From: a virus
Strand: one strand, 5' to 3'
Virus record (IMG/VR): IMGVR_UViG_3300046558_000133
Location: 1 to 42,639 of that record
DNA: 42,639 nt
Both the position numbers and the translations under genes were made by a program. Of the stretch, positions 77 to 31,846 are shown piece by piece. The notes under the pieces were generated by a model, which searched no databases, had not been told where the DNA came from, and saw nothing but the letters and a program-made list of their open reading frames with translations. Position 1 is the first letter of the stretch. The number at the start of each line of letters is the position of its first letter.

Positions 77-105
77 TTGACTTCGTTTCGAGTCGGATGT
101 AAGAA
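77..105 (+). promoter_or_regulatory. Sigma70-like promoter
   Basis: TTGACT (77-82), 17-bp spacer, TAAGAA (100-105). The spacer ends in GGATG, which joins the -10 to form the TGTAAG motif seen in many promoters of this window. It would drive the gene starting at 167. Confidence 0.5.
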
Positions 106-166
106 TAAGTCTCTTCCAATGAATTGGAGGAGATTTGGTTTATCAGAAATTACTTGGAGGTTTTAG

Positions 167-13643: not shown

Positions 13644-13664
13644 ACCAAGACCCTCTTAAATTTA

Positions 13665-14630: not shown

Positions 14631-14640
14631 AAGAAAAAAG

Positions 14641-14790: not shown

Positions 14791-14801
14791 ACATTCAAAA
14801 C

Positions 14802-15066: not shown

Positions 15067-15076
15067 CATAATAAAG

Positions 15077-20403: not shown

Positions 20404-20431
20404 TTGACACGTTCCACCTTTTCCTTACATT
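20404..20431 (+). promoter_or_regulatory. Sigma70-like promoter with CCTTACAT motif
   Basis: TTGACA (20404-20409), 16-bp spacer, TACATT (20426-20431). TTTTCCTTACAT overlaps the -10; the same set recurs at 20979. Confidence 0.6.
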
Positions 20432-20468
20432 GGACATAACGAAACAACGCAACTAAGGAGTAACGGAA

Positions 20469-20684: not shown

Positions 20685-20800
20685 TGTTTAAGTATCATCT
20701 AATTGACGGCTATTGGTGGATTTGCCTTTATCTAAATGGCAGGTTCTACCGGCTGAATCAAATCGGCAAGGCTGGCGATTGCTTGCATATGCCACGATAA
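20681..20800 (+). CDS. Small aromatic-rich protein, 39 aa
   Basis: ATG overlaps the previous stop (ATGATG). The peptide (MMFKYHLIDGYWWICLYLNG ... HMPR) is tyrosine/tryptophan-rich, beta-hairpin-like. A hairpin (20807-20831) follows directly. Confidence 0.45.
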   Translation: MMFKYHLIDGYWWICLYLNGRFYRLNQIGKAGDCLHMPR

Positions 20801-20806
20801 TCAATT

Positions 20807-20831
20807 AGCCGCGTCTATATTAGGCGCGGCT
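20807..20831 (+). terminator. Hairpin, probable weak terminator
   Basis: AGCCGCG (20807-20813) pairs with CGCGGCT (20825-20831), followed by TGTTCTTGTTTTG. The T-run is interrupted, so termination may be partial. Confidence 0.55.
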
Positions 20832-20840
20832 TGTTCTTGT

Positions 20841-21007
20841 TTTGTTCCGTTTTAAAAAAAATCCCATCCCTCATTCTCCCCACCTCCGCCCCGCTTCGCA
20901 GCGCTGCATCCTTGATGTACTTTTAATTTAAGCGATTCCGCTATCGAAGTCAATAGGAAAAATAATTTAATTTTTGTGTTGACACGATTTTTCCTTACAT
21001 CTAAGTT
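20841..21007 (+). repeat. Second copy of a TTTGTTCCG-to-promoter regulatory module
   Basis: TTTGTTCCG then TTTAAAAA (20841 onward), a GC-rich pyrimidine stretch, GAAGTCAATAGGAAAA, and TTGACACG with CCTTACAT repeat the same order found at 20242-20431. The two copies are diverged in between. The module precedes a promoter in both cases. Confidence 0.5.
20979..21007 (+). promoter_or_regulatory. Sigma70-like promoter
   Basis: TTGACA (20979-20984), 17-bp spacer containing TTTTTCCTTACAT, TAAGTT (21002-21007). Drives 21046-21907. Confidence 0.65.
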
Positions 21008-21045
21008 GTGCATATCGAAACGCCTTTCACATAGGAGCTAAGGCA

Positions 21046-21639
21046 ATGCCTTCAATCATCGAAACCACGGTTTTCAAGTTTGACGAATTGAACGAATCCG
21101 CGAAAGACACGGCGCGCAATTGGTGGAAAGAGTTGGCGCGCAATGATGATTGGTTTGAATACACTTTTGAAGACGTTACGGAATGCGGCGCGCTGCTAGG
21201 AATAACCGTTGATAAAATCTATTTCAGCGGTTTTTGGTCCCAAGGCGACGGGGCTTGCTTTGAAGGTTCATACCAGTATCGCAAAGGCGCTGGCGCTGCT
21301 ATTGCGGCACATACTGGCGGTTGCGATACGCTTGTGACGCTGGCAAAGGAATTGCAGGATATCCAAAAGAAGGCGCTATATTGCCTAACTGCTACGGTTC
21401 GGCATAGCGGGCGATACTATCACGAACATTCCGCCGATATTGACGTTGAACACAAGAACGGGCATTTTATCAATGAGACGCTTGAAACGAGTATCAAGGA
21501 ATACATGCGCGATTTCATGCGTTGGATATATCGCGAGCTTGAAAAGGCTTACAACGATTACATGAGCAACGAAAACGTTGATGAAAATATTCGTATCAAC
21601 GAATATACGTTTACCGCAAACGGTGAAAGGTTTGGATAA
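21046..21639 (+). CDS. Conserved phage/plasmid protein of the 'FDELNESAKDTARNWW' type, 197 aa
   Basis: The N-terminal VFKFDELNESAKDTARNWWK and the core KIYFSGFWSQGDGACFEGSY are hallmarks of a family common in phages and plasmids, sometimes labelled 'antitoxin of toxin-antitoxin stability system' without solid proof. Helical C-terminus (YMRDFMRWIYRELEKAYNDY). No partner toxin is visible next to it. An early gene from the promoter at 20979; function open. Confidence 0.75.
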   Translation: MPSIIETTVFKFDELNESAKDTARNWWKELARNDDWFEYTFEDVTECGALLGITVDKIYFSGFWSQGDGACFEGSYQYRKGAGAAIAAHTGGCDTLVTLAKELQDIQKKALYCLTATVRHSGRYYHEHSADIDVEHKNGHFINETLETSIKEYMRDFMRWIYRELEKAYNDYMSNENVDENIRINEYTFTANGERFG

Positions 21640-21758
21640 TGAGAATCAAAATCGACAAGGAAGAATGGGTTAGGCTAGGCGGTTTGAAGAATTCCGACTT
21701 GTTCCGAATCCAGCAACGCAATGGCAGATGGTTCTATTACAAAGGCGCAACGCGATGA
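21639..21758 (+). CDS. Small hypothetical protein, 39 aa
   Basis: ATG overlaps the previous stop (TAATG). Basic, with RIQQRNGRWFYYKGATR at its end. Overlap with both neighbours supports a real coupled gene; function unknown. Confidence 0.5.
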   Translation: MRIKIDKEEWVRLGGLKNSDLFRIQQRNGRWFYYKGATR

Positions 21759-21907
21759 TTGTTGAACGCAATCCAGTTTCAGGAGCATGGAACATTTCAG
21801 AGATAGTTGACGGCTATCTAATGCGCCGCTCCTATCTCGACTATACCAAGAAAGAAGCGGTTGCGGCTTTCAAGGCGGAAAAGAAAGAGCAGGAAGAAAA
21901 CAAATAA
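21755..21907 (+). CDS. Small hypothetical protein, 50 aa
   Basis: ATGA overlap with the previous gene. Compact strand-rich start (IVERNPVSGAWNISEIVDGY) and a highly charged helical tail (EAVAAFKAEKKEQEENK). Last gene of its operon. Confidence 0.55.
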   Translation: MIVERNPVSGAWNISEIVDGYLMRRSYLDYTKKEAVAAFKAEKKEQEENK

Positions 21908-21924
21908 AAAATTCAAAAAGCCGC

Positions 21925-21967
21925 TTGACGTGAGACAAATGTAAGATTAAGTTTGTCTCACGTTCAA
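21925..21967 (+). promoter_or_regulatory. Promoter inside an 11-bp inverted repeat
   Basis: TTGACG (21925-21930), 17-bp spacer, TAAGTT (21948-21953). CGTGAGACAAA (21929-21939) and TTTGTCTCACG (21952-21962) are perfect inverted repeats, with TTGA/TCAA outside. The spacer contains ATGTAAGAT. Position matches the early dyads at 24-28 kb but the arm sequence is unrelated. Confidence 0.7.
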
Positions 21968-21987
21968 CGCTTTAAGGAGCAACGTTA

Positions 21988-22206
21988 ATGCGAGTGTTTC
22001 AAATCCCAACTGCCAAGCCGATTGAAGCTTGCGTTAAGTTTGAATATAAAGGCTATGAAATCAGCCTTTCAACTGGCAACGGTTTGCCATGGCTTGCGGT
22101 TTATCTTGGCGCAAGCAATTCGCCTCTTTTCATTTGTGAGCAAACCGATTTGCTTGATGCAATCGATCAAGCCAAAGCCTTCATTGACAACGCTTTAAGG
22201 AGTTAA
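21988..22206 (+). CDS. Hypothetical protein, 72 aa
   Basis: AAGGAG lies upstream. Strand-rich core (VKFEYKGYEISLSTGNGLPW) and a C-terminal helix (DLLDAIDQAKAFIDNAL), a small alpha/beta fold. Unknown. Confidence 0.6.
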   Translation: MRVFQIPTAKPIEACVKFEYKGYEISLSTGNGLPWLAVYLGASNSPLFICEQTDLLDAIDQAKAFIDNALRS

Positions 22207-22210
22207 GGCT

Positions 22211-22417
22211 ATGCCCGGTTACAATGAAAAGACCTATATCCATATCCCAACTCTACACGAGGTTTACGGGCAAGATGGTTATGGCTGGTATTGTGACAAA
22301 GAAACGGCGGATTCGCTCTTTGAAGGCGTCGAATTGACGCAGAGCAAGAATCCATTGTGGTACTATCTCAAAGATATGACCGCAAAGAAAATCCGCAATC
22401 GGGGTTTTGTCAAATGA
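22211..22417 (+). CDS. Hypothetical protein, 68 aa
   Basis: AAGGAG from the previous gene's end serves this start. Tyrosine-rich (YNEKTYIHIPTLHEVYGQDG), basic end (AKKIRNRGFVK). Overlaps the next gene by ATGA. Unknown function. Confidence 0.6.
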   Translation: MPGYNEKTYIHIPTLHEVYGQDGYGWYCDKETADSLFEGVELTQSKNPLWYYLKDMTAKKIRNRGFVK

Positions 22418-22653
22418 TCTATTTCCGACTCTTCGGCATTGATACAAACGGCTTGGCATATACGTTTGCCAATGAAACAATTGAATGGACTCTAAGAGCA
22501 GTCCGCCGCGACTCGCAGTGTTTCGGCCTGTGCGAAATGGGCGCATATGAGGGCGAACATTCATGCCGGTTTGTGACATATGCATGGAATCCTATCGATG
22601 GTTACACTTACGACCCTTGCAAAGAGATAGAAAAAATTTATAAAAACTCTTGA
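22414..22653 (+). CDS. Hypothetical protein, 79 aa
   Basis: Start in the ATGA overlap with the previous gene. Contains four cysteines (QCFGLC, SCRF, DPCKE) and a globular beta-rich look (DTNGLAYTFANETIEWTLR). Its end overlaps the -35 of the next promoter. Confidence 0.6.
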   Translation: MIYFRLFGIDTNGLAYTFANETIEWTLRAVRRDSQCFGLCEMGAYEGEHSCRFVTYAWNPIDGYTYDPCKEIEKIYKNS

Positions 22654-22678
22654 CTTGAATCTTTTTTAGGTTCAATGT
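22650..22678 (+). promoter_or_regulatory. Probable promoter with TGTAAGGAAA motif
   Basis: TTGACT (22650-22655); at 17-bp spacing the -10 would be CAATGT (22673-22678), weak. TTGAA/GGTTCAA forms a small dyad across the spacer, followed by TGTAAGGAAA. Confidence 0.4.
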
Positions 22679-22712
22679 AAGGAAAGATGAAACGCTTTAA
22701 GGAGCAACTGAC

Positions 22713-22952
22713 ATGACACTTTCCACCAAAGCCGCAACGGCGAAAGACGCGCGCAACGCAGGTTCTGAGATGCAGCATAGGCATTTCGCCACGATAGCGG
22801 CTATCATCAAAGATATGACAGTCTTTGACAACTTAGGCGATGGTGACGAATGGCGCAAAGAAATTGCGTATCATTTCGCGGATGAATTGGCGAAAACAAA
22901 TCCGCGTTTCGATCGCGCCCGATTCCTTAAAGCTTGCGGCACAAAGGAGTAG
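22713..22952 (+). CDS. Hypothetical protein, 79 aa
   Basis: AAGGAG lies upstream. All-helical (AKDARNAGSEMQHRHFATIA, WRKEIAYHFADELAKTNP, FDRARFLKACG). The pattern recalls small phage proteins named only as hypothetical; unknown. Confidence 0.6.
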   Translation: MTLSTKAATAKDARNAGSEMQHRHFATIAAIIKDMTVFDNLGDGDEWRKEIAYHFADELAKTNPRFDRARFLKACGTKE

Positions 22953-22957
22953 AGACC

Positions 22958-23299
22958 ATGGTTAATGTCGTCAAACTCGCAAATGGCAATCTTAAAGTGA
23001 CTGCCAATAATGAAGACAGACAAGCCATTAAAGAATGGTCGCAACGTTCTCGTTGGATTATTTGGGCTGATTTGCTTGAATCCTTCTCTTCAAATGGCAG
23101 TTATACAGCGTTTGATGCCAGCGACGGGAATCCGTTTGTAGGGCTTACAAGCGCGCCTTGCATCGCTGAGTGCATAGATACCGAAGATGATGGAACGCAG
23201 ACAGTTCAAGGTGATTTTTGGTTTTTTGATAACTATATGTTTGAGGATGAGCTAGAATTGCTCAAAAATAAAGGCTATGTCATTTTCACGTTGGCTTAA
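22958..23299 (+). CDS. Hypothetical protein, 113 aa
   Basis: Start at 22958 (MVNVVKLANGNLKVTANNED) has AAAGGAG 8 nt upstream; the open frame starts at 22934. Compact alpha/beta protein with an acidic aromatic C-terminus (GDFWFFDNYMFEDELELLKN). Similar unnamed proteins occur in many phages. Unknown role. Confidence 0.65.
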   Translation: MVNVVKLANGNLKVTANNEDRQAIKEWSQRSRWIIWADLLESFSSNGSYTAFDASDGNPFVGLTSAPCIAECIDTEDDGTQTVQGDFWFFDNYMFEDELELLKNKGYVIFTLA

Positions 23300-23364
23300 C
23301 CTTTCCTTCATACCTTCCTGCTATCTTGCTCCTATCGGCAATCAAGCCGCTAGGAGCTAAGACC

Positions 23365-23538
23365 ATGAAAAGAGAAATCAAAGAAATCAATCTTGACGCC
23401 TATGAATTCATTGCGAAGCGCAACTCTGAGATAATGACGGCTTATTGTTTAATTTTTATAACTTTGATTTTTTCGCTTGCCAGCCTGTTTTGCGTTTGCT
23501 ATAGGTTAGAGGCAATCAAAGCAACATTAGGGATTTGA
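23365..23538 (+). CDS. Small membrane protein, 57 aa
   Basis: The start at 23365 (MKREIKEINLDAYEF) has AGGAGC upstream; the open frame extends to 23326. One hydrophobic helix (YCLIFITLIFSLASLFCVCY) flanked by charged ends predicts a single-pass inner-membrane protein, perhaps for superinfection exclusion or lysis control; no specific evidence. Confidence 0.6.
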   Translation: MKREIKEINLDAYEFIAKRNSEIMTAYCLIFITLIFSLASLFCVCYRLEAIKATLGI

Positions 23539-23550
23539 GGAGCTAAGACA

Positions 23551-24093
23551 ATGCCAAAATTCGAAATGACCGGCAAGCATGAAAAGGCTTTCAAAGATTT
23601 GCCTTACATTGTGCAAGGCTTTATCGAAGCTATGTTTTTCACGGATGGCGATAGCGAGGAAATCCCTAGCGATTGCGGCTTTGCTGACCTGCATCCTGAT
23701 TCACTCCTGCAAATCATTGAATTCTGCGAAGCGTTCGAAAAAGCGGCGGGAACGCTTATTGATGAGGCTTGCGACCGTGAAGGATACGACTCCGAACGAC
23801 TCGGAAATGACTTGTGGTACACTTCACAAGGTCACGGCGTGGGCTTTTGGGATAGAACGGAACTAGATTTGCAAGGCGCTGAGAAGGAAGAATATGAACG
23901 CCTTACAAATATCATGGTTGCGGCGGGACATGCGACTCCGGCATGGGATGAAGCTCTAGCAGAACGCAACAAACTTGTTTCGCTTGGCGACAAGCTCGCA
24001 AATCTTTGCCGCTACAAAGAAGCGCAAGTTTGGTTTGGCGACCATGTAACATATGGTGACGCGCCTTTCGTGCATGTCGAAATAAAGTTTTAA
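23551..24093 (+). CDS. Conserved-type phage protein, 180 aa
   Basis: GAGGAGC lies upstream. The core motif NDLWYTSQGHGVGFWDR is, to my knowledge, characteristic of an uncharacterised family found in many phages; histidine and aspartate in it could bind metal. The rest is acidic and helical. Followed at once by the first of the 16-bp dyad promoters. Confidence 0.7.
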   Translation: MPKFEMTGKHEKAFKDLPYIVQGFIEAMFFTDGDSEEIPSDCGFADLHPDSLLQIIEFCEAFEKAAGTLIDEACDREGYDSERLGNDLWYTSQGHGVGFWDRTELDLQGAEKEEYERLTNIMVAAGHATPAWDEALAERNKLVSLGDKLANLCRYKEAQVWFGDHVTYGDAPFVHVEIKF

Positions 24094-24100
24094 AAACCTC

Positions 24101-24143
24101 TTGACCATGTAAGGAAAATCGTTTAACTTCCTTACATGGTCAA
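24101..24143 (+). promoter_or_regulatory. Early promoter embedded in a perfect 16-bp inverted repeat (copy 1)
   Basis: TTGACC (24101-24106), 17-bp spacer, TAACTT (24124-24129). Left arm TTGACCATGTAAGGAA (24101-24116) is a perfect inverse of TTCCTTACATGGTCAA (24128-24143), 11 bases apart. The -35 is part of the left arm and the -10 runs into the right arm. Expected start near 24136, inside the right arm. Confidence 0.8.
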
Positions 24144-24159
24144 CAAAGGGATTAAGCAA

Positions 24160-24321
24160 ATGCAAAAGCTACTTGATAAGTTTATGACAGATTCCAGCCT
24201 TGCCAATGCGCGCAAGCTTGTTGCATATCTTCATAAACATCCTATGGCGGAATGCATGACAAGCGTTAGCGAAAGGTTTGAAATCAATATCGCTCGCAAG
24301 CTTTGCGCCGCCAATCAATAA
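24160..24321 (+). CDS. Hypothetical protein, 53 aa
   Basis: Start at 24160 (MQKLLDKFMTDSSLANARKL); the frame extends into the dyad at 24136, which is not translated if transcription starts there. Helical (RKLVAYLHKHPMAEC, ERFEINIARKLCAANQ). Followed by a terminator. Unknown. Confidence 0.6.
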   Translation: MQKLLDKFMTDSSLANARKLVAYLHKHPMAECMTSVSERFEINIARKLCAANQ

Positions 24322-24332
24322 GCCTTAAAATT

Positions 24333-24360
24333 TCCTGCCCGATCAAGGGCAGGATTCTTT
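24333..24360 (+). terminator. Intrinsic terminator
   Basis: TCCTGCCC (24333-24340), loop GATCAA, GGGCAGGA (24347-24354), then TTCTTT. Confidence 0.85.
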
Positions 24361-24381
24361 AACGCTTTAGGAGCTAAGCCA

Positions 24382-24624
24382 ATGATTTACGCCTTTGATC
24401 GCCGTCGCGAAATGCTAGTTGAATTCAAGTCTGAAAAGGCTTTCAACGCGGCTAACAGGGAAATTCCCGCTAGCGAGGATGAATATGGTAACGGTTATTG
24501 GCTCTACAAGGCCATTCATCGTACCACGGCGCACAAATGGGTTAGAGACGGTTATCAGCATGAAACCGGCTTATTTGTCGATTATGATGGCAGAGTCCGT
24601 TACGCAAAAGAGGATTTGAGCTAA
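24382..24624 (+). CDS. Hypothetical protein, 80 aa
   Basis: AGGAGC precedes the ATG. Alpha/beta with aromatic residues (YGNGYWLYKAIHRTTAHKWV, FVDYDGRVRYAKED). Its stop overlaps the next start (TAATG). Lies between a terminator and the next promoter with no clear promoter of its own, so read-through is likely. Unknown. Confidence 0.6.
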   Translation: MIYAFDRRREMLVEFKSEKAFNAANREIPASEDEYGNGYWLYKAIHRTTAHKWVRDGYQHETGLFVDYDGRVRYAKEDLS

Positions 24625-24812
24625 TGGCCAAAACAACAGTCTATGCAGTGCGCGCCGCTGAGACAAAGGAACGCGTTTCGTATCGCTATCGTGATAGGAG
24701 TGATGCAATCGCTGCAATGAAGGTATTGCAACGCGTTTCTGGTAGCGAGCTAGAAGTCTATCGAACTACTCAAGATTTGGTGAAAGTCGCCAAGCGGCGC
24801 AAAGGAGCTTAA
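24624..24812 (+). CDS. Hypothetical basic protein, 62 aa
   Basis: Overlaps the previous stop by one base. Basic, with an internal helix (DRSDAIAAMKVLQRVSGSEL) between strands, resembling a small ferredoxin-like half fold, and a basic end (VAKRRKGA). Unknown. Confidence 0.6.
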   Translation: MAKTTVYAVRAAETKERVSYRYRDRSDAIAAMKVLQRVSGSELEVYRTTQDLVKVAKRRKGA

Positions 24813-24816
24813 AGCT

Positions 24817-25101
24817 ATGACGACTAAGAAACTTTCCCGCGTTGCGCAACTCGCCAAAGACTTGCTGCAATATAAAGCAATGGACGTTATGACTCTTTTC
24901 ATGGCTTATCATGCCATGAAAAAAGTTAACAAAGATAAATACATGGCAAGCGGAGTCATTGTTACGATTCAGAACCTTAGCGGCGAAACGATAGTTGGCC
25001 CGTTCATGGTGCAAGACGGTTTGAGCGCTGAAACAATCGCAGCGATACAAGCCGATATCAAGGCGACATATGATCATCGCTTGGCGATACATAAATTTTA
25101 A
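24817..25101 (+). CDS. Hypothetical protein, 94 aa
   Basis: AAAGGAG precedes the ATG. Helical first half (SRVAQLAKDLLQYKAMDVMT), strand-rich second half (GVIVTIQNLSGETIVGPFMV). No recognised family. Ends just before dyad promoter copy 2. Confidence 0.6.
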   Translation: MTTKKLSRVAQLAKDLLQYKAMDVMTLFMAYHAMKKVNKDKYMASGVIVTIQNLSGETIVGPFMVQDGLSAETIAAIQADIKATYDHRLAIHKF

Positions 25102-25109
25102 AAAGCCTA

Positions 25110-25152
25110 TTGACGTTGTAAGGAAAAGCGTTTAAGTTCCTTACATGGTCAA
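25110..25152 (+). promoter_or_regulatory. Early promoter in an inverted repeat (copy 2)
   Basis: TTGACG (25110-25115), 17-bp spacer, TAAGTT (25133-25138). Arms 25110-25125 and 25137-25152 match at 14 of 16 positions; the two mismatches are in the left arm (GT for CA). Confidence 0.75.
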
Positions 25153-25167
25153 CAAGGGAATACGGAA

Positions 25168-25377
25168 ATGGAAAGAGGAAAGTTTGCAGGGCGCATTGGC
25201 AGGGTTTGCGAATATGCGGTTTACTTTGAAGGGAATACGACCCTTCTATATCGCGGCAAAGAAGTTGAACCATGCTTTGAATCGCAAAGCTATGAAGCGG
25301 CTGAAAAGTTTGCGGGCGTAATTGGTTACAGGCAAACGGCGCGCGGTCCTATGCCGCTATATGCCGATAGTTGGTAA
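25168..25377 (+). CDS. Hypothetical protein, 69 aa
   Basis: GGGAATACGG precedes the ATG, the leader conserved after most dyads. Strand-rich (GRVCEYAVYFEGNTTLLYRG) then helix (QSYEAAEKFAGVIGY). Followed by a terminator, so a monocistronic unit. Unknown. Confidence 0.65.
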   Translation: MERGKFAGRIGRVCEYAVYFEGNTTLLYRGKEVEPCFESQSYEAAEKFAGVIGYRQTARGPMPLYADSW

Positions 25378-25388
25378 GCCTTTAAATT

Positions 25389-25413
25389 TGGCGCTCTAAT
25401 GGAGCGCCATTCT
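25389..25413 (+). terminator. Intrinsic terminator
   Basis: TGGCGCTC (25389-25396), loop TAATG, GAGCGCCA (25402-25409), then TTCTT. Confidence 0.85.
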
Positions 25414-25435
25414 TAAACGCTTAGGAGATAGTGCC

Positions 25436-25657
25436 ATGACAGACAATCAAATTCATGCCGAGATTCGCGACATTATAAGCCGTCTCAAATGGCTTGCGGC
25501 GCGCGACGGTAGTGCATGCCACATGACTCGCGAAACCGCGCTACGCAAGGCGCTAGGCCTTCTTAACAAGGCTAAGAATCAGGAACGTTTCACCTTGTCG
25601 CGTTCCATCCTCTTCACTATGATGAATCAATCCCGCGCCGTGGCGCAAAGGAGCTAA
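25436..25657 (+). CDS. Hypothetical protein, 73 aa
   Basis: AGGAG lies upstream. All-helical basic protein (IHAEIRDIISRLKWLAARDG, ETALRKALGLLNKAKNQERF). Could be a nucleic-acid-binding helical bundle; no family recognised. Lies after a terminator without an obvious promoter. Confidence 0.6.
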   Translation: MTDNQIHAEIRDIISRLKWLAARDGSACHMTRETALRKALGLLNKAKNQERFTLSRSILFTMMNQSRAVAQRS

Positions 25658-25661
25658 GGCA

Positions 25662-26051
25662 ATGAGAATCGAAACCGCGTTGAATCGTCGCAATACTGCT
25701 ATTCAATCCTTGCGTTCATTGTATGAAACCGCAAAGTTTTATGGCCCTCTTTCATCTCAGATGAATGAAGACAAGGCGAAGATTCGCCGGTCAACATTGG
25801 CGAAATGCCCGCATTGGGTTATTGCTTATTTTGATGGTTACGAAAAGGCGTTGATTGACGCTCTTTATCGCGACTCGCTCATGTTTGGCGGTTTCTATGA
25901 AGGCAAATTCTACTCGACTCATAGTAATCGCGCTGATTATTATGGTAACAACGGGATTGAACCGTCAGAATATGCAGACAATGGTAAGGTCTCAAATCGT
26001 GGCCATTATTGGCTAACGACAAAAGAACCTAAGCCTTATTTCATTGGTTAG
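25662..26051 (+). CDS. Hypothetical protein, 129 aa
   Basis: AAAGGAGC precedes the ATG. Helical N-terminus (LNRRNTAIQSLRSLYETAKF), then KCPHWVIAYFDGYEKALIDA, and a tyrosine/asparagine-rich C-terminus (SNRADYYGNNGIEPSEYADN). Coupled with its neighbours by close spacing. Unknown function. Confidence 0.65.
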   Translation: MRIETALNRRNTAIQSLRSLYETAKFYGPLSSQMNEDKAKIRRSTLAKCPHWVIAYFDGYEKALIDALYRDSLMFGGFYEGKFYSTHSNRADYYGNNGIEPSEYADNGKVSNRGHYWLTTKEPKPYFIG

Positions 26052-26062
26052 GAGCTAGGGCA

Positions 26063-26302
26063 ATGTTTATCTCTATCGTTGAAAACAGTACAGGCGAGGA
26101 ATTGCTATTGCGCCGCCTTGCGCCAAACGAGTCGATTGATCCTGCATATCATTGCCACAAATGGGCAAAATGGAACGATTTGACCATTGCCAAAAGTGAT
26201 GGTTACATTCCTAATGGTTGCGCTGATTTCTATGCCGAAACGCGGCACACAAAACAGGCGAGCGGGGTTTGCTGGCAAAGCTTCAACTTTTATTTGGAAT
26301 AG
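26063..26302 (+). CDS. Hypothetical protein, 79 aa
   Basis: AGGAGC lies upstream. Possibly beta-rich (MFISIVENSTGEELLLRRLA) with a histidine/cysteine pair (YHCHKW). Ends 3 bases before dyad promoter copy 3. Unknown. Confidence 0.6.
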   Translation: MFISIVENSTGEELLLRRLAPNESIDPAYHCHKWAKWNDLTIAKSDGYIPNGCADFYAETRHTKQASGVCWQSFNFYLE

Positions 26303-26305
26303 CAC

Positions 26306-26348
26306 TTGACCATGTAAGGAAAATCATTTAGGTTTATTACATGGTCAA
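26306..26348 (+). promoter_or_regulatory. Early promoter in an inverted repeat (copy 3)
   Basis: TTGACC (26306-26311), 17-bp spacer, TAGGTT (26329-26334). Left arm 26306-26321 is the consensus; the right arm (26333-26348, TTTATTACATGGTCAA) differs at two bases near the loop. Confidence 0.75.
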
Positions 26349-26364
26349 CAAAGGGAATACGGAA

Positions 26365-26598
26365 ATGCGTCCTTACAAAATGACTGAGAATCGCGGTTTG
26401 CAGCCTGATATGTCGGCGGAGCTTTACGTAAAGCGCGACACTATGACAGACCTTTGGCGTTTGGCTTGGATGACTCCAAACTCTGATTCCTACTGCTATG
26501 CAGAAGGTGAATGCAGCGCAAAGCTTTTCAAGCGTCGTTATGAAGCCGTTGCCTATGGCGAAAAGGCATATGGCGAAACTGCAAAAAATTGGAAATAA
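26365..26598 (+). CDS. Hypothetical protein, 77 aa
   Basis: Start at 26365 (MRPYKMTENRG) after the conserved leader GGGAATACGGAA; the frame extends into the dyad. Aromatic/basic (LWRLAWMTPNSDSYCYAEGE, KRRYEAVAYGEKAYGE). A monocistronic unit ended by the next dyad. Unknown. Confidence 0.65.
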   Translation: MRPYKMTENRGLQPDMSAELYVKRDTMTDLWRLAWMTPNSDSYCYAEGECSAKLFKRRYEAVAYGEKAYGETAKNWK

Positions 26599-26602
26599 GC
26601 TA

Positions 26603-26645
26603 TTGACTATGTAAGGAAATGATTTTAATATCCTTACATAGTCAA
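26603..26645 (+). promoter_or_regulatory. Early promoter in an inverted repeat (copy 4, compensatory change)
   Basis: TTGACT (26603-26608), 17-bp spacer, TAATAT (26626-26631). The left arm has T where the consensus has C (TTGACTATGTAAGGAA) and the right arm (26630-26645) has the matching A for G (CCTTACATAGTCAA), preserving the dyad. Confidence 0.8.
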
Positions 26646-26660
26646 CAAGGAAACACGGAA

Positions 26661-26882
26661 ATGGCCCGCAAGATTAAAAACGACAAAATCGAAATTGGCG
26701 ATTTCGTCATGATCGTAAAAGGCGTTGAAAACGGTTGGCCTATGAATGAAGGTTTTGTGGGCATTCTTGACAACGAATTCGTTAAGGATGGAATCACTCA
26801 ATATGCAGTCGTTTCTGAGAACTACGAAAACGACGACATTTTCTACTATGCAGCGGAAATTAAATTGTTCCAAAAGGCTTAA
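26661..26882 (+). CDS. Small SH3-like protein, 73 aa
   Basis: Start at 26661 (MARKIKNDKIEIGDFVMIVK) after the conserved leader. The pattern IEIGDFVMIVKGVENGWPMN then FVGILDNEF matches small SH3/KOW-type barrels. Unknown function; possibly an early regulatory or nucleic-acid-associated protein. Confidence 0.6.
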   Translation: MARKIKNDKIEIGDFVMIVKGVENGWPMNEGFVGILDNEFVKDGITQYAVVSENYENDDIFYYAAEIKLFQKA

Positions 26883-26894
26883 GGAGCTAGGGCA

Positions 26895-27215
26895 ATGGCG
26901 AAATACTTCAATATCATGCAAGGCTTGCGTGGCTGTTACATGCCAGATAGCGCCTATGTGATCAAATGTGACACAAGGCGCGAATTGAAAAACGCGATTG
27001 AATGGGAAGCGCGCGACATTCGCGATGCAGGCTTCATTGGCGCAAACAAGAAAGGCGTTGCTGCGCTTGCCGCTCATATGTGGCGCGAAGCAAAGAAGGC
27101 CAAACCTTCTTATTATCCCGATGTTTTGCCCTATGGCACAAGGGATAACAAACATTCCGCAATTCATGTTTCCGTGGCAACGCGGCGGGAATATCTGGAA
27201 CAACAAAACGATTAA
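26895..27215 (+). CDS. Hypothetical protein, 106 aa
   Basis: AAGGAGC lies upstream. Starts MAKYFNIMQGLRGCYMPDSA, then a strand/helix unit (YVIKCDTRRELKNAIEWEAR), a pattern I associate with recurrent unnamed phage proteins, followed by a basic alpha region (HMWREAKKAKPSYYP). Unknown role. Confidence 0.65.
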   Translation: MAKYFNIMQGLRGCYMPDSAYVIKCDTRRELKNAIEWEARDIRDAGFIGANKKGVAALAAHMWREAKKAKPSYYPDVLPYGTRDNKHSAIHVSVATRREYLEQQND

Positions 27216-27277
27216 ACCGCAACAATACCGCTCCAATGGTGGAACGGTATAGCTCTACAACAAAGGAGATTAAGAGC

Positions 27278-27403
27278 ATGTCGCAGAACAAAATGAACAA
27301 GAAGGCAATCCAGAACGCGCGCCGTGATAAGCAGGCAAGACGCAACGTTTTCGCCTTTGTCGCGGCTGATAAGAGGGATGGAGTCGAAAAGCGTTTTTAT
27401 TAA
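27278..27403 (+). CDS. Small very basic protein, 41 aa
   Basis: AAAGGAG lies upstream of the ATG. Lysine/arginine-rich (NKMNKKAIQNARRDKQARRN), probably nucleic-acid binding. Preceded by a short hairpin-prone stretch (ATACCGCTCC / GGAACGGTAT). Small but well spaced in the operon. Confidence 0.5.
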   Translation: MSQNKMNKKAIQNARRDKQARRNVFAFVAADKRDGVEKRFY

Positions 27404-27422
27404 AAATTCTCGGATTTGCCTA

Positions 27423-27465
27423 TTGACCATGTAAGGAAAGAGTCGTATCTTCCTTACATGGTCAA
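27423..27465 (+). promoter_or_regulatory. Early promoter in a perfect 16-bp inverted repeat (copy 5)
   Basis: TTGACC (27423-27428), 17-bp spacer, TATCTT (27446-27451). Arms 27423-27438 and 27450-27465 are perfect, 11 bases apart. Confidence 0.8.
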
Positions 27466-27487
27466 CTGCATTAAAGGGAATACGGAA

Positions 27488-28243
27488 ATGGAAAAGCAGA
27501 CTCGCATTTACTACATTTCGACCGGCGCTAAAAACGCAATGTACACTCTTCGCGTTAATGTAGTAGGCAAGTTTTTCATTGATAACTACATCTGCAATCT
27601 TGCTGCTACGGAAGAAAAGGCAGTAGAGAAGGCAACGGATTATGTTGAACGCCTTAAAAGCCGCGTTTCCCACGATGCAACGCTTGAAATCCTTTTCAAT
27701 GATATGCCTGAGTTTGAAGCTGACAAGAGACGCGGCAAGCTTTCCATCTATGACACTCGCAACATTGAAGAAATTGAAAATGGTGTGTTTCCTTTTGGTA
27801 AGCACAAAGGCGTTAAGATTGTTGACGCGCCCGACTCCTATGTCCTGTATTTTGCCGATCAAGCCCTTAGCGAATCAAACATGGTTTCGAATGCTTTGAT
27901 TGCGGCTTGTCAAGGCGTTGCACTGGAAAAGGGTTTGATTGCCAAGCGTGAGGCAATCCGCGCCGAACGCTTCGCGGTTGACTCCCTTTCTTCTTTCATC
28001 GGCACGATTGGCGAGCGCCGCGAATTCAAAGGCGAAATTTTCGCTTTCATCAAGAAGGAAGAAACGGACTATCAAGCTGGTTACACTATCACTAAGGTTA
28101 GAATCGGAAACGATATCGTTTCTTTCTTCAATAACGAAATGGGCAAAGTTGGCGAAACAATCGCTTTCAAGGCGACGGTTAAGCAGCATAACGATTATAA
28201 AGGCGTCAAGACTACGGTCGTTAATCGCCCAAAGGCGTTGTAA
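27488..28243 (+). CDS. Conserved-type phage DNA-metabolism protein with a 'PFGKHKG' domain and OB-like C-terminus, 251 aa
   Basis: Start at 27488 (MEKQTRIYYISTGAK) after the conserved leader. Residues about 98-120 (FPFGKHKGVKIVDAPDSYVL) match the short 'FGKYKG...D..YL' domain (DUF3820-like) found near exonuclease and recombination proteins. The last third (FKGEIFAFIKKEETDY, KATVKQHNDYKGVKTTVVNR) resembles an OB fold with the 'KHxxYKGVKxTxxNRP' end seen in phage single-strand-binding-type proteins. Largest gene of the early block; probably DNA or RNA binding. Confidence 0.7.
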   Translation: MEKQTRIYYISTGAKNAMYTLRVNVVGKFFIDNYICNLAATEEKAVEKATDYVERLKSRVSHDATLEILFNDMPEFEADKRRGKLSIYDTRNIEEIENGVFPFGKHKGVKIVDAPDSYVLYFADQALSESNMVSNALIAACQGVALEKGLIAKREAIRAERFAVDSLSSFIGTIGERREFKGEIFAFIKKEETDYQAGYTITKVRIGNDIVSFFNNEMGKVGETIAFKATVKQHNDYKGVKTTVVNRPKAL

Positions 28244-28258
28244 TCTTTAAAAAACCGC

Positions 28259-28301
28259 TTGACCATGTAAGGAAAAGGTTCTAAATTCCTTACATGGTCA
28301 A
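28259..28301 (+). promoter_or_regulatory. Early promoter in a perfect 16-bp inverted repeat (copy 6)
   Basis: TTGACC (28259-28264), 17-bp spacer, TAAATT (28282-28287). Arms 28259-28274 and 28286-28301 are perfect, 11 bases apart, identical to copies 1 and 5. Confidence 0.8.
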
Positions 28302-28317
28302 CAAAGGGAATACGGAA

Positions 28318-28539
28318 ATGACTCGCACCGAAACACGCGCCGCCGCTCGCCACGCCCTCAAGCGTTTTGTACAAGAAAATCGCTTGGAAGTAGACACTCG
28401 CGAATATTCGTCAGTAATCTACAAAGACGAGATGAAAATCATTGTCACGTTCCTTAGCGCCACAAAGCGCAATCCTGATAGGCTGATTCAGCATGTTTTC
28501 AACATGGATTGCAGCTTTGATTATATGACGGCTTGCTAA
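28318..28539 (+). CDS. Hypothetical protein, 73 aa
   Basis: Start at 28318 (MTRTETRAAARHALKRFVQE) after the conserved leader. Helix then strand (SSVIYKDEMKIIVTFLSATK). Followed by a hairpin terminator. Unknown. Confidence 0.65.
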   Translation: MTRTETRAAARHALKRFVQENRLEVDTREYSSVIYKDEMKIIVTFLSATKRNPDRLIQHVFNMDCSFDYMTAC

Positions 28540-28550
28540 GCCTTTATATC

Positions 28551-28572
28551 AACGCCTTGCCAGCAAGGCGTT
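28551..28572 (+). terminator. Probable intrinsic terminator
   Basis: AACGCCTTGC (28551-28560) and GCAAGGCGTT (28563-28572) are perfect inverted repeats with a tiny loop; the tail (TAATAAAT) is only partly T-rich, so termination may be incomplete. Confidence 0.6.
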
Positions 28573-28602
28573 TAATAAATGCTTAACAAAGGAGTTTTGA
28601 GC

Positions 28603-29199
28603 ATGGCGACCAAATATGTACACGATACCAAGGCTGGAAAGAGCATTTCCGCCTATGTCGTCTTGAACAAGAAAGGCGAGCATGTCGCCACGGTTAAGGC
28701 GCATTTCAGCGACGGCGGAACATGCCTTGTTAACGTGCATGATTTCCATGGCGAGTTTCAGCATGCCACGGCGGGTGGCTATGGCTACGACAAATTCACT
28801 GCGGCTCTTTCTGGAATGACGATTGACGGTCATGAAATGACGAATCACGCTGAGAGTGTAGGAGCGCCAAAACCGCCAAAAGGTCGTAAGACCTTCCCGC
28901 GTGACTACACGCCCAAAAAGGGTTACAGTCTTGCCAACTATACCAGTATCAGCAAGGCGACCGGTAGAATGGTTTACGCTAATGATTGGTATGAAAAGGC
29001 CTATGCCGCGCTAGGCATTGCCGACTCCGACGCTGACACGAAAAACGCAAGGTGGAATGAAGTCAAAGAAACGGCTTTCAAGCTGCAACGGGAATGGGAA
29101 ATGTCGGACGATTGCGAAACGGGCTATAGCTCATGTTTCCGCGAATCTGGTTTGAACTACCTTAAGGCCATTGGCTATAAAGTTATTCAGGCGATTTGA
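28603..29199 (+). CDS. Conserved-type phage protein, 198 aa
   Basis: Start at 28603 (MATKYVHDTKAGKSISAYVV) after GGAGTTTTGAGC. N-terminal beta-rich domain (VLNKKGEHVATVKAHFSDGG, CLVNVHDFH) resembles a recurrent early phage protein with no known function. The C-terminal half (DDCETGYSSCFRESGLNYLK) has two cysteines. Not identified further. Confidence 0.65.
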   Translation: MATKYVHDTKAGKSISAYVVLNKKGEHVATVKAHFSDGGTCLVNVHDFHGEFQHATAGGYGYDKFTAALSGMTIDGHEMTNHAESVGAPKPPKGRKTFPRDYTPKKGYSLANYTSISKATGRMVYANDWYEKAYAALGIADSDADTKNARWNEVKETAFKLQREWEMSDDCETGYSSCFRESGLNYLKAIGYKVIQAI

Positions 29200-29426
29200 T
29201 CGCAGAAAGGAGCACTATCGATTGTTTCAATTCTATGGATTTTGCGGCTCTTGCCTACTGCTCTATGTCCTAATCGGACTGCATCACTAGGCCATAGGCA
29301 AGCCCAAGGAACGGCTTTTAGGGCTTAGATGGTATTGCCCTAGCCAAATCACTGAATCGCGTTCTGTGAAGCTCTAAAAGGCTTTGCAGGACGCTCGATT
29401 ATTTTTGAGATTTTTAAAAATTCCGC
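29200..29426 (+). other. Short gene-poor stretch with RNA-like stems and a tiny ORF
   Basis: A 22-residue hydrophobic peptide (TTG 29222 to TAG 29290, FQFYGFCGSCLLLYVLIGLH) follows AAAGGAG and may be real. CTTGCCTA (29250-29257) pairs perfectly with TAGGCAAG (29295-29302), enclosing GTCC/GGAC; TAGGGC (29319-29324) pairs with GCCCTA (29337-29342). This could be a small RNA or leader. Confidence 0.35.
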
Positions 29427-29454
29427 TTGCCAAGATGTAAGGAAATGTTATTGT
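29427..29454 (+). promoter_or_regulatory. Probable promoter with GATGTAAGGAAA motif
   Basis: TTGCCA (29427-29432), 16-bp spacer, TATTGT (29449-29454). It keeps TGTAAGGAAA in the spacer and the downstream leader GGAATACGGAA, but has lost the right-hand arm of the dyad. Confidence 0.5.
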
Positions 29455-29483
29455 GTAGATATCGAAACAAGAGGAATACGGAA

Positions 29484-29765
29484 ATGGCTAAAATTCACCT
29501 CCGCGCAAACAAGCTTGTTGACGAAACGACTCGCCCACGCGCTGTTTGTGCAAGCCAAATCGGTTCAAATGGTAAGATCAAAAACAATGGTCGCGACACA
29601 TACCGTTTCATGGCTTCTGAGATTGTCGGGCGTCTTGAATTCGCAAAGGTTGATGCAAAAGACCGTTGCGCCCATTGCTTGGATACCGGCCTTCAAATGC
29701 GCAACGTTTTCCGCAAACAGAATGGCTTGCCGCCTTTGGAAAATCTGTTTGCCGATATAGATTAA
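29484..29765 (+). CDS. Zinc-knuckle type hypothetical protein, 93 aa
   Basis: Start at 29484 (MAKIHLRANKLVDETTRPRA) after GAGGAATACGG. Cysteines in AVCASQI and DRCAHCLDTG could bind zinc, as in small phage proteins of this type ('DxCxHCL'). Ends at a terminator. Unknown role. Confidence 0.65.
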   Translation: MAKIHLRANKLVDETTRPRAVCASQIGSNGKIKNNGRDTYRFMASEIVGRLEFAKVDAKDRCAHCLDTGLQMRNVFRKQNGLPPLENLFADID

Positions 29766-29779
29766 GCCTTTCGATTAGG

Positions 29780-29803
29780 AGCGCCGCGAATGGCGCTTTA
29801 TTT
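29780..29803 (+). terminator. Intrinsic terminator
   Basis: AGCGCC (29780-29785), loop GCGAAT, GGCGCT (29792-29797), then TTATTT. Confidence 0.7.
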
Positions 29804-29840
29804 CGAAATGCTTACATGTCAAACCAAAGGAGAAAATGAC

Positions 29841-30086
29841 ATGACTGGAATCGTTGCTACTGGAACGGGCGTGAATCTTTTTGTTGCGGTTTCGCTGAAA
29901 CACGGTTTGAGCCTTTACGCTAAGACCGGAATGAAGCCGAATCGTATGTGGACGCCAAAGGCCATGATGGCAAAGGCTAGTGAAATCACTGGCAAGAAAT
30001 TCAAGGCAAGGGATTATCAAGGCGCTATTGCCGCCCTACAAGCCCACATAGACGCATCTCCAAAGGATGGAATAACGACTTACTAG
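29841..30086 (+). CDS. Hypothetical protein, 81 aa
   Basis: AAAGGAG precedes the ATG at 29841; the longer frame to 29790 spans the terminator. Strand-rich start (MTGIVATGTGVNLFVAVSLK), then LYAKTGMKPNRMW and a helix (DYQGAIAALQAHIDA). Resembles small unnamed early phage proteins. Followed by long palindromes. Confidence 0.6.
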   Translation: MTGIVATGTGVNLFVAVSLKHGLSLYAKTGMKPNRMWTPKAMMAKASEITGKKFKARDYQGAIAALQAHIDASPKDGITTY

Positions 30087-30095
30087 AACGCCTTC

Positions 30096-30134
30096 CTGCT
30101 ACGCCATGCCTCTATATGGGCCATGGCGTAGCAG
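30096..30134 (+). repeat. 13-bp perfect hairpin
   Basis: CTGCTACGCCATG (30096-30108) and CATGGCGTAGCAG (30122-30134) are perfect inverted repeats around a 13-nt loop. GC-richer than its surroundings and not followed by T's, so more a structural or processing element than a terminator. Confidence 0.7.
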
Positions 30135-30176
30135 CCTACCTAGTAGCATGGCCATGCATGGCAGTGCATACATGCA
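30135..30176. repeat. Stacked short palindromes
   Basis: GCATGGCCATGC is a perfect 12-bp palindrome and GTGCAT-AC-ATGCAC a perfect 14-bp one. Similar GCATGC/GGCCATGC palindromes recur at about 30506-30540 on the far side of the small membrane gene. Confidence 0.55.
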
Positions 30177-30247
30177 CAATCTATTATATATTCATATGTG
30201 CATATAGTGTATGCACTATGTATCATATATGAATATATAATAGATTG
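30177..30247. repeat. 21-bp AT-rich inverted repeat
   Basis: The arms at 30177-30197 and 30227-30247 are perfect inverted repeats of 21 bp; the 29-base loop holds TGCATA-TAGTG-TATGCA, so the whole forms one long hairpin or cruciform. Immediately followed by the promoter at 30253. Confidence 0.75.
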
Positions 30248-30252
30248 AATAG

Positions 30253-30295
30253 ATGTAAGATAATGATTGCATTGTCTTACATTGTTCGATATAGT
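30253..30295 (+). promoter_or_regulatory. Promoter overlapping a TGTAAGA dyad
   Basis: TTGCAT (30267-30272), 17-bp spacer, TATAGT (30290-30295). ATGTAAGA (30253-30260) and TCTTACAT (30275-30282) are perfect inverted repeats, with AATG/CATT inside. The dyad is centred on the -35 instead of the -10. Confidence 0.6.
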
Positions 30296-30328
30296 CTATT
30301 CATACACAACACATAAGGAGTAAGGCGC

Positions 30329-30502
30329 ATGCGTAAACAGATTGGTTATTTCTTCTCCGATATCAGCAACTGCTTTGCCACTGCTATGGCTTGTGGGCTG
30401 GCATACATGATGACTACCGATCATGTCGCGCCTTACATCATACGCGAATTGTTCAAGCTCGCAGCGCATGCCGCATATACTGCAATCATTAATATGTTCT
30501 AA
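30329..30502 (+). CDS. Small membrane-associated protein, 57 aa
   Basis: AAGGAG lies upstream of the ATG. Two moderately hydrophobic helices (SNCFATAMACGLAYMM, FKLAAHAAYTAIINMF) flank a polar turn. Probably membrane-associated. Flanked by palindrome-rich DNA on both sides. Unknown. Confidence 0.6.
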   Translation: MRKQIGYFFSDISNCFATAMACGLAYMMTTDHVAPYIIRELFKLAAHAAYTAIINMF

Positions 30503-30560
30503 TACATGGTGCATGCATAGGCCATGCGCCTAGCAGGCTAGGGATAGAAGGGGAAACGAT

Positions 30561-30755
30561 ATGATTAAGTTGCTGACTCTCTTTGTGCTAGTGCATAACA
30601 CTGCAACGGATATTGATTCGTTGCACGTGTATGGTCAATACACGTATGAAGAATGCAGAATGAAAGAAGATGAAATAAATAAAATAGATTCAGAATTAAA
30701 TAAATCATTAAAACAATTTAAACTTGAGCTAGTCGAGACGAGATGCGATGACTAG
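30561..30755 (+). CDS. Small exported or membrane-tethered protein with two cysteines, 64 aa
   Basis: GAAGGGG precedes the ATG. Hydrophobic start (MIKLLTLFVLVHN), then a polar helical domain with cysteines in YEECRMKEDE and VETRCDD. Same layout as the genes at 3979 and 4155, including the aromatic/polar stretch before the first cysteine. Confidence 0.65.
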   Translation: MIKLLTLFVLVHNTATDIDSLHVYGQYTYEECRMKEDEINKIDSELNKSLKQFKLELVETRCDD

Positions 30756-30997
30756 TGTCGATTGTTGTTGACTCTAATCTATTATTGATTTAAAATCGAG
30801 AGGGACCCAAGGCCGGTATACCCCTCCCCCTCGATTTCCGGCCTTACTACTGTAAAAAATACACAACCCAACTTGTACGCCAACACACCCCCCCCCATGT
30901 TCCAGACCCTTACCCTCAAAAAAATTTTTCACCGCAAGTTAGTGCTCAAAAATTTCAGTAACTTACCATTTTAATTTTTGGACCATTAATTTAAATC
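30756..30997. other. Non-coding junction with crossing inverted repeats
   Basis: No gene between the early and late modules. AAATCGAG (30793-30800) pairs with CTCGATTT (30830-30837), and AAGGCCGG (30809-30816) with CCGGCCTT (30838-30845), in crossing order. A C-tract of nine (about 30888-30896) follows. Could be a regulatory RNA, a replication/packaging signal or a terminator-like element. Confidence 0.45.
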
Positions 30998-31027
30998 TTG
31001 ACATTTCGTTAATTATATGAGATGATA
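30998..31027 (+). promoter_or_regulatory. Sigma70-like promoter
   Basis: TTGACA (30998-31003), 18-bp spacer, ATGATA (31022-31027), upstream of the protease gene. The -10 match is moderate. Confidence 0.5.
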
Positions 31028-31051
31028 AACGAAATAAATGGGAACAGACTA

Positions 31052-31836: not shown

Positions 31837-31846
31837 TTTTGTTACT

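Follow-up and report, generated by a model that had tools for sequence, protein, structure and literature searches.

The subject of this analysis is a stretch of viral DNA of 42,639 nucleotides (IMG/VR record IMGVR_UViG_3300046558_000133, positions 1 to 42,639), referred to in its entirety as the window, and within it six inverted repeats, or dyads, between positions 24101 and 28301. An earlier note, made from the sequence alone, had placed six promoters in such repeats here; all six dyads are found, each encloses a promoter of sigma-70 type, and the arrangement is far above chance. Each begins 3 to 19 bp past the stop codon of the preceding gene and is followed by a leader and a gene, in most cases a small one (Table 1). 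The distance from TTGAC to the -10 hexamer is 17 bp in all six, with six different -10 hexamers. The genes are presumably early, and transcription from the first dyad would start near 24136.

Dyads 1, 5, and 6 pair at all 16 positions, the three perfect copies of which the note had spoken. Dyad 2 is mismatched at pairs 6 and 7, and dyad 3 has two mismatches as DNA, one of which, at pair 14, would be a G-U pair in RNA. The double change of C to T and G to A described for dyad 4 is present and keeps the pairing at that position, in company with one inner A-A mismatch. The leader claimed to be shared, GGGAATACGGAAATG, stands unaltered behind dyads 2, 3, 5, and 6, and takes the form GGGATTAAGCAAATG behind dyad 1 and GGAAACACGGAAATG behind dyad 4.

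Table 1. Promoters, dyads, and hairpins discussed in the text. Positions refer to the window unless another contig is named.
Feature	Position	Strand	Details
Dyad promoter 1	24101-24116/24128-24143	+	16-11-16, perfect; -35 TTGACC, -10 TAACTT; leader, then 53-aa orphan gene 24160-24321
Dyad promoter 2	25110-25125/25137-25152	+	14/16 pairs; -10 TAAGTT; 69-aa orphan gene 25168-25377
Dyad promoter 3	26306-26321/26333-26348	+	14/16 pairs as DNA; -10 TAGGTT; 77-aa gene 26365-26598
Dyad promoter 4	26603-26618/26630-26645	+	T/A variant, 15/16 pairs; -10 TAATAT; 73-aa gene 26661-26882
Dyad promoter 5	27423-27438/27450-27465	+	perfect; -10 TATCTT; 251-aa gene 27488-28243 (phrog_3628)
Dyad promoter 6	28259-28274/28286-28301	+	perfect; -10 TAAATT; 73-aa orphan gene 28318-28539
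Dyad promoter, other arms	21925..21967	+	arms TTGACGTGAGACAAA / TTTGTCTCACGTTCAA around ATGTAAGAT; -10 TAAGTT; counterparts in G001, G003, probably G011
Promoter TTGACA-16-TACATT	20404..20431	+	single core box TTCCTTACAT (20421-20430) overlapping -10; gene 20469-20684
Promoter TTGACA-17-TAAGTT	20979..21007	+	single core box 20991-21000 in spacer; gene 21046-21639
Promoter-like repeat TTGACTTGAATCTTTTTTAGGTTCAATGTAAGGAA	22650..22684	+	single core box 22675-22684; four copies: window, G001 (2), G003
Promoter TTGCCA-16-TATTGT	29427..29454	+	single core box 29435-29444
Imperfect dyad ATGTAAGA...TCTTACAT	30253..30296 (dyad 30253-30282)	.	right half in spacer of possible promoter TTGCAT-17-TATAGT
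Promoter-like site outside early region	77..111	+	TTGAC-N15-ATGTAAGAATA, box in -10 region
TTGAC-N15-ATGTAAGR sites	window 77-111; G001 69280, 72959, 77738, 78951; G003 reversed 1822, 10118, 11123, 13960
Terminator-like hairpin, conserved flanks	24319..24367	+	behind gene of dyad 1
Same flanks, different paired stem	25375..25423	+	behind gene of dyad 2
Similar hairpin	28537..28585	+	behind gene of dyad 6

Occurrence of the dyads in related contigs

Over its first 42,052 bases the window matches IMG/VR contig 3300046665_000306 (G002, 120 kb, opposite strand) at 99.9% identity. The search of related phage genomes that the earlier note had recommended found the dyads in contigs 3300046665_000305 (G001, 120 kb) and 3300046660_000282 (G003, 46 kb), and in a distant relative, 3300020045_011333 (G011, 185 kb). 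A megablast search with positions 20000 to 32000 of the window gave no match among 50,697 phage records.

The arm, at three or fewer mismatches, occurs 14 times in the window against 0.53 expected, and 12 of the 14 occurrences are the arms of the six dyads. In a permutation test, the bases outside the hexamers were shuffled and promoters with a dyad score of at least 10 were counted. The window has 6 against 0.03 in shuffled sequence, G001 has 4 against 0.05, and G003 has 5 against 0.03, where the window's six comprise five of the main dyads and the promoter with other arms at 21925, dyad 2 being left out with a score of 9. For G011 the test gave 1 against 0.2 at a score of at least 10, and 3 against 0.57 at a score of 9. 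A general promoter scan of positions 20000 to 31000 returned only 27 sites, where shuffles gave 19.5 +/- 4.6, and three of the six dyads are in its list. Promoter strength is therefore unremarkable by consensus alone.

Across 79 loci with relatives of gene 21046, dyads with a score of at least 9 number 23 at 264 promoter-like sites, against 0 of 94 when shuffled. Nineteen of them lie in G001 to G003 and G011 (two are terminators), and four are single cases in loci L076, L095, L096, and L109. The cultured relatives Lacusarx, DSS3P8, and RcXuper show no dyad with a score of at least 8 at 10, 9, and 9 promoter-like sites, respectively, numbers of sites small enough that the negative carries little weight. 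Arm-like matches with two to three mismatches occur in four of five cultured-relative records, with none in the fifth. Looser dyad patterns in viral contigs led to L056, L057, and L267 to L270, all of which look unrelated and were set aside; L057, a viral contig of 6.8 kb, has a similar dyad, ATGTAAGGAA-N13-TTCCTTACAT, at 418-450.

Several other identities for the dyads were rejected. The opposite strand lacks a TA...T -10 element at 15 to 19 bp, as a bidirectional promoter would need. An intrinsic terminator would have a GC-rich stem and a T run, and the T run is missing after the right arm in all 15 dyads of the window, G001, and G003, with CAACAAAGG or a similar sequence in that place. Leaderless initiation at the right arm's ATG cannot be general, because that ATG is in frame in 11 of the 15, out of frame in 2, and absent from 2. 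As for an element derived from the host, the 16-bp arm is about as frequent as chance predicts: 84,980 genomes (257 Gb, both strands) contain at least 119 stretches with it against about 120 by chance, and no dyad is found among the 80 stretches listed, each of which has one match.

The host of this large phage is likely an alphaproteobacterium, judging by protein similarities. The 15 best terminase matches are to phages of alphaproteobacteria, at 32-42% identity, save one to a Microcystis phage, and one has no stated host; distant terminase matches occur in 444 Mycobacterium phage records, none of them among the 15 best listed. A protein of 1,191 residues in the window finds matches chiefly in Rhizobium phages. 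For two further proteins the best matches come from Pseudomonas, Bordetella, Klebsiella, or Microcoleus phages.

Elsewhere in the window, four tRNA genes (Met, Arg, Lys, Leu) lie on the minus strand at 12484-15159, inside a leftward gene cluster. GTTC-N7-GTTC repeats number 10 in the whole window against 1.36 expected, six of them in 20100-20250. This cluster (20106-20245) sits at a long inverted repeat, close to where the early region begins, and is found also in G003 and partly in G001; we take it to resemble alphaproteobacterial SOS boxes, or else an origin. An AT-rich inverted repeat of 24 nt, 96% complementary with 23 nt between its arms, lies at 30177-30247 and precedes gene 30329-30502.

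A core box within and outside the dyads

The core of the arm, ATGTAAGGAA, also stands alone in other early promoters, at several distances from the -35 element and in both orientations. Exact cores number 16 in the window (0.08 expected), 15 in G001 (0.25), and 15 in G003 (0.07). Twenty of these lie outside dyads (seven, seven, and six, respectively), and 14 of the twenty are at most 35 bp downstream of TTGAC or TTGCC (four in the window and five in each of the others), while three are in the terminase gene and three elsewhere. The cores outside dyads form classes by their distance from the -35 element, in either orientation, and single cores recur at corresponding non-dyad promoters in all three genomes. 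Two G003 promoters similar to that at 29427, located at 44376 and 44753 (reversed), have 9-bp arms on both sides. The view that one repeated promoter design precedes many small genes, amounting in effect to a regulon, is thereby borne out on a wider scale than the note had proposed, with single cores at other promoters and dyads in three related contigs.

In G011 the core has the form ATGTAAGAAA, whether within the dyad or by itself. The early stretch of this contig (20.6 kb) holds six copies of ATGTAAGAAA (0.20 expected) and none of ATGTAAGGAA (0.08 expected); in the whole contig, 10 ATGTAAGRAA boxes, including one ATGTAAGGAA, compare with 2 matches to the reversed pattern. The G011 dyad carries the base change of its core in the left arm, and the partner base is changed in the right arm. 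Since G003 also holds seven copies of ATGTAAGAAA, both forms of the core may be read there.

Some promoters outside the early region have their -10 region occupied by a related box, ATGTAAGR. A search of G001 to G003 outside that region for TTGAC-N(13-18)-ATGTAAG found 11 sites, all with exactly 15 bases between the two elements. The unannotated genes behind these sites are taken to be late or structural.

Conservation of arm sequence, pairing, and position

Sixteen dyads were compared, 15 from the window, G001, and G003 (10 distinct sequences) and one from G011 (11 distinct in all). Any two of the 10 distinct dyads differ on average at 0.036 of left-arm sites, 0.050 of right-arm sites, and 0.44 of loop sites, and for the 16-bp flanks of all 15 the figures are 0.49 upstream and 0.43 downstream. 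Variation in loop and flanks is roughly tenfold that in the arms, in a comparison biased by the collecting script, which fixed parts of the arms (TTGAC, TGTAAGG, TTACAT, GTCAA). A search by pairing only, applied at promoters, recovered the same 15 dyads plus other dyad classes (the 21925 type and the TTGCCA type). This low variability of the arms, together with the unpartnered cores elsewhere, suggests that sequence matters at least as much as pairing.

Over the 11 distinct dyads, nine of the 16 pairs are invariant, two are changed on both sides, one is changed on one side, and four depart by broken cells only. MAFFT placed the two-base gap of G011 in such a way that pairs 6 and 7 were lost, and a hand count used the placement that keeps pairing; by that count a single broken or gapped cell occurs in each of six pairs, among them pair 6, which is also doubly changed. 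The covariation score was matched or exceeded by 12 of 500 shuffles, the percentage paired by 22 of 500, and the number of further pair types by 89 of 500. With the partner slid by one to three columns, no double change is left, and covariation scores are 0.000 to 0.038 compared with 0.061 in register. The note had held that pairing, and not only sequence, is kept, and had suggested covariation across copies and relatives as the check. The two doubly changed pairs agree with it and outdo most shuffles, but five other pairs are broken or gapped in one sequence each, mismatches are present, and further pair types are no more numerous than many shuffles give. Pairing is favoured and not strictly kept, and arm sequence is strongly kept.

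The variant in dyad 4 is not a fresh local event, because G003 has an identical 43-bp dyad ahead of another gene; in G001 the gene of dyad 4 is preceded by the C/G form, with a different loop. The clearest comparison of orthologs is that of G003 with G011, whose proteins behind the dyad are 67% identical. Between these two dyads, the left arm changes from GG to GA, the partner C in the right arm changes to T, and two bases of the right arm are lost in G011. Predicted folding energies for the 15 dyads run from -16.0 to -25.4 kcal/mol, and the G011 dyad, with a bulge, gives -10.5. One loop sequence is common to four dyads of G001 and G003 and to dyad 2 of the window.

A second promoter family has other arms and carries a core variant in its loop. 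Its members are at 21925 in the window, 101048 in G001, 37641 (reversed) in G003, and 48811 in G011, with stems of -19.3, -10.2 (weak), -16.1, and -19.2 kcal/mol, respectively. The arms of the G011 member are unrelated to the others, and its centre and leader make it likely to be homologous. Window and G003 differ by one G-C/C-G flip, one two-sided change to a wobble pair, one one-sided change to a wobble pair, and one broken pair; the G001 member breaks two pairs that G003 keeps. This family offers the best evidence for selection on pairing.

At three places the flanking genes are conserved and the dyad stays where it is, yet the gene that it precedes is an unrelated one: between families F13 and F14 (window and G003), before F3 (window, G003, and G001), and behind F4 (G001 differing from window and G003). 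For the gene that stands first after a dyad, a homologue is lacking in the early regions of the other three genomes in 9 of 15 cases, compared with 20 of 70 other early genes (Fisher p = 0.033), a difference that is suggestive, the gene calls being script-made and the copies not independent. We propose that promoter and leader form a portable cassette, which would keep its place while the gene behind it is exchanged. Hairpins with common flanks and different stems follow six of the 15 genes that stand first behind a dyad, and are not joined to the promoter. Such hairpins, with flanks TAAGCCTT... and differing paired stems, occur behind small genes at 24319, 25375, 28537, and 29763 in the window, at 101355, 104964, and 107133 in G001, and at 37928, 42045, and 44999 (reversed) in G003.

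A proposed operator, its alternatives, and comparable systems

We give about an even chance to the reading in which the dyads are symmetric operators laid over host-type sigma-70 promoters and read by one DNA-binding protein. Promoter activity, timing, regulator, and the sign of regulation are all deduced here from the DNA. A single sequence-specific protein, encoded by the phage or borrowed from the host, would recognise the core ATGTAAGRAA. Two inverted cores and an outer TTGAC/GTCAA clamp would span the promoter from -35 to about +8, and a protein lying there would block RNA polymerase and turn the small-gene units off together. The shut-off could serve as a switch from early to late expression, or as immunity if the phage is temperate. 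Where promoters of this region carry a single core, they would be the regulon's weaker members, and the same protein may also act at the -10 boxes of promoters outside the early region. The varied distances of single cores from the -35 element, in both orientations, fit blocking and not a fixed contact. A protein that reads the box accounts for both dyads and single boxes, while a hairpin accounts for the dyad only, which favours a sequence-specific regulator. Of the two options that the earlier note had left side by side, the symmetric operator is thus the better fit, and the hairpin in read-through RNA fits less well.

A number of observations weigh against the operator. All 16 dyads end their right arm in GTCAA, which the single boxes lack, so that the dyad as a whole is not accounted for by the core alone. 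The distance between half-sites differs by about 5 bp between the main dyads and the TTGCCA type of G003, which is awkward for one rigid dimer, and the right half-site of G011 is short of two bases. Only three of the six early G011 boxes (the dyad included) are near TTGAC, and beyond the early stretch G011 has one ATGTAAGGAA and three ATGTAAGAAA. At the other promoters, the box in the -10 region could belong to the promoter itself instead of serving as a binding site, and the second promoter family keeps partial pairing with other arms. Searches for the protein itself also count on this side. HTH_3 has no match in G001, G002, G003, or G011, and no regulator was found among the Pfam matches listed for 235 proteins (those of the window, and those of at least 60 residues in G002 outside it). 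The helix-turn-helix (HTH) protein of the window (3298-3843) has no homologue in G001 or G003 (E 1e-4).

Among the Pfam matches listed, the window has that one HTH protein plus one weak HTH_Tnp_1 match. The product of gene 20469-20684 (family F0) is a candidate on the sole ground that a box lies upstream of it in all four genomes; its predicted model is beta-rich with a mean pLDDT of 66.7, and its homologue in RcTitan has no box within 89 upstream bases. A tyrosine recombinase of 194 residues in G002 (107246-107830; L050:7246-7830), with a homologue in G001, lacks an N-terminal domain, and its catalytic residues look intact by eye. We rejected it as a regulator with an MrpR-like fold, since PF00589 proteins, matched also in G011, are found in Lacusarx, DSS3P8, and RcXuper, in which no such dyad was found at the promoter-like sites. 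One G002 protein, from among those of L048-L050, weakly matches the C-terminal domain of the RNA polymerase alpha subunit (PF03118, 6.4e-6).

The dyads might instead act in RNA, as an RNase III or stability element separating units: RNA started upstream would hold the full stem before the next leader, and RNA started internally would lack the left arm. The stable predicted folds, the doubly changed pairs with their covariation score, the second family (21925, G001, G003, G011) that keeps a stem despite partly or wholly different arms, and the close spacing of the dyads behind the preceding stop codons all speak for such a hairpin. Yet arm sequence is conserved far beyond what pairing needs, the core occurs alone in other promoters, and further pair types do not rise above shuffles. 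Dyads 2 and 3 are mismatched, G011 is bulged, and the G001 member of the second family breaks G003 pairs. We consider this hairpin rather unlikely. A related thought, to which we attach little probability, is that selection acts on the layout itself: the -35 element would be kept complementary to the transcript start (TTGAC/GTCAA), the rest of the arms would be replaceable, and the hairpin would mark read-through RNA at each internal promoter, leaving RNA begun at that promoter unmarked.

It is also conceivable, if rather improbable, that the symmetry has no present regulatory role, and that a strong promoter cassette, once an inverted duplication, spreads by recombination, while gene conversion among copies and template switching from one arm to the other keep the arms alike. 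Whole cassettes do move, since identical dyads precede unrelated genes and a loop is common to several dyads, and positions are kept while genes are exchanged. Gene conversion would, however, level the 11-bp loop too, and the loop varies like the flanks; single cores at corresponding non-dyad promoters in three genomes also count against this reading. A hairpin (cruciform) promoter of the N4 type, read by an RNA polymerase that the phage packages in its virion, would likewise place inverted repeats at early promoters. The N4 promoter has a short stem and a 3-nt loop, and the N4 virion RNA polymerase has about 3,500 residues. Here the stem is 16 bp, the loop 11 nt, and a sigma-70-like promoter is present in every copy; no frame for a giant polymerase was seen in the window or the rest of G002, where the largest open frames have 1,191 residues (window) and 1,063 (G002 outside it), in contigs that may be incomplete. 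We regard an N4-like promoter as very improbable.

The layout has its closest parallel in the start-associated sequence (SAS) and extended SAS (ESAS) of cluster K mycobacteriophages, described as present in several copies before non-structural genes (Pope 2011, PMC3203893; PMC11373665; PMC12699233). In Adephagia, seven copies of a 46-47 bp element are described, with SigA-like hexamers 17-18 bp apart and an imperfect inverted repeat of 15-17 bp (PMC11373665). A conserved short sequence at the ribosome-binding site follows, a repeat-binding regulator of unknown identity has been proposed, operator and promoter roles have been raised, and RNA pairing was judged poorly supported, according to these accounts (PMC3203893, PMC11373665). 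Our dyads share with ESAS a spacing of about 17 bp between the -35 and -10 elements, both of which are enclosed by an inverted repeat of some 15-17 bp. In contrast to cluster K, where the SAS at the ribosome-binding site is GGGATAGGAGCCC, the same place is taken here by GGGAATACGGAAATG and its variants, sequence and host group are unrelated, the arms are mostly perfect, and the core also occurs alone. We file the element as an analogue of ESAS and not as a member, because arm and leader sequences differ; as to kinship, there was no near match in the 50,697 records, a negative that is compatible with an old common origin.

SAS/ESAS-like motifs (cluster EF) and 18-bp inverted repeats (cluster EG) are described upstream of start codons in Microbacterium phages; the EG repeat forms a compact dyad around a centre of 2 bp, and the EF upstream motif is weakly conserved, in both respects unlike the present case (PMC7302621). 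Cluster O mycobacteriophages have more than 30 copies of one 17-bp dyad per genome, thought to be the site of a dimeric protein, and differ in that these are described as lying mostly away from predicted promoters (PMC4351075). In Bacillus phage SPbeta, SPBRE, a 15-bp motif in many phage promoters, is reported to be bound by the master repressor MrpR (PMC10516654). The present element is like SPBRE in that the same site recurs in many promoters of one phage, but the site is not a 15-bp motif and the search for candidates found no regulator. The stoperators of cluster A mycobacteriophages resemble our single cores in that a single repressor has a short asymmetric site present in many copies; the stoperator accounts considered describe no promoter-embedding dyads. 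In the PeSL (promoter-stem-loop) cassettes of T4-type phages, the subject of work by Arbiol in 2010 and Comeau in 2014, promoter and terminator reportedly form one composite motif, as the 2014 title has it. These repeated early promoter cassettes have been tied to gene shuffling (mentioned in PMC4503421, PMC5931544). Genes are likewise exchanged between cassettes at three places here, but the promoter lies inside a dyad, and the terminator-like hairpins are separate. Our literature searches for phage promoter palindromes in Rhizobium phages or roseophages found no paper with the terms used, which is weak evidence of absence.

The ESAS-like layout is thus already known in actinobacterial phages, and the present element is apparently an independent further case, whose carriers probably infect another bacterial phylum than those examples do. 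Recurrence of the promoter-in-palindrome layout suggests that there is a common logic to how many small and rapidly exchanged genes are run. If the layout itself were selected, then together with the -10 box outside the early region it would amount to structure-based insulation and timing of interchangeable gene cassettes. The core box is a concrete bait for finding the regulator, the related box at promoters outside the early region may link two gene sets, and the dyads mark entry points of new small genes in these genomes.

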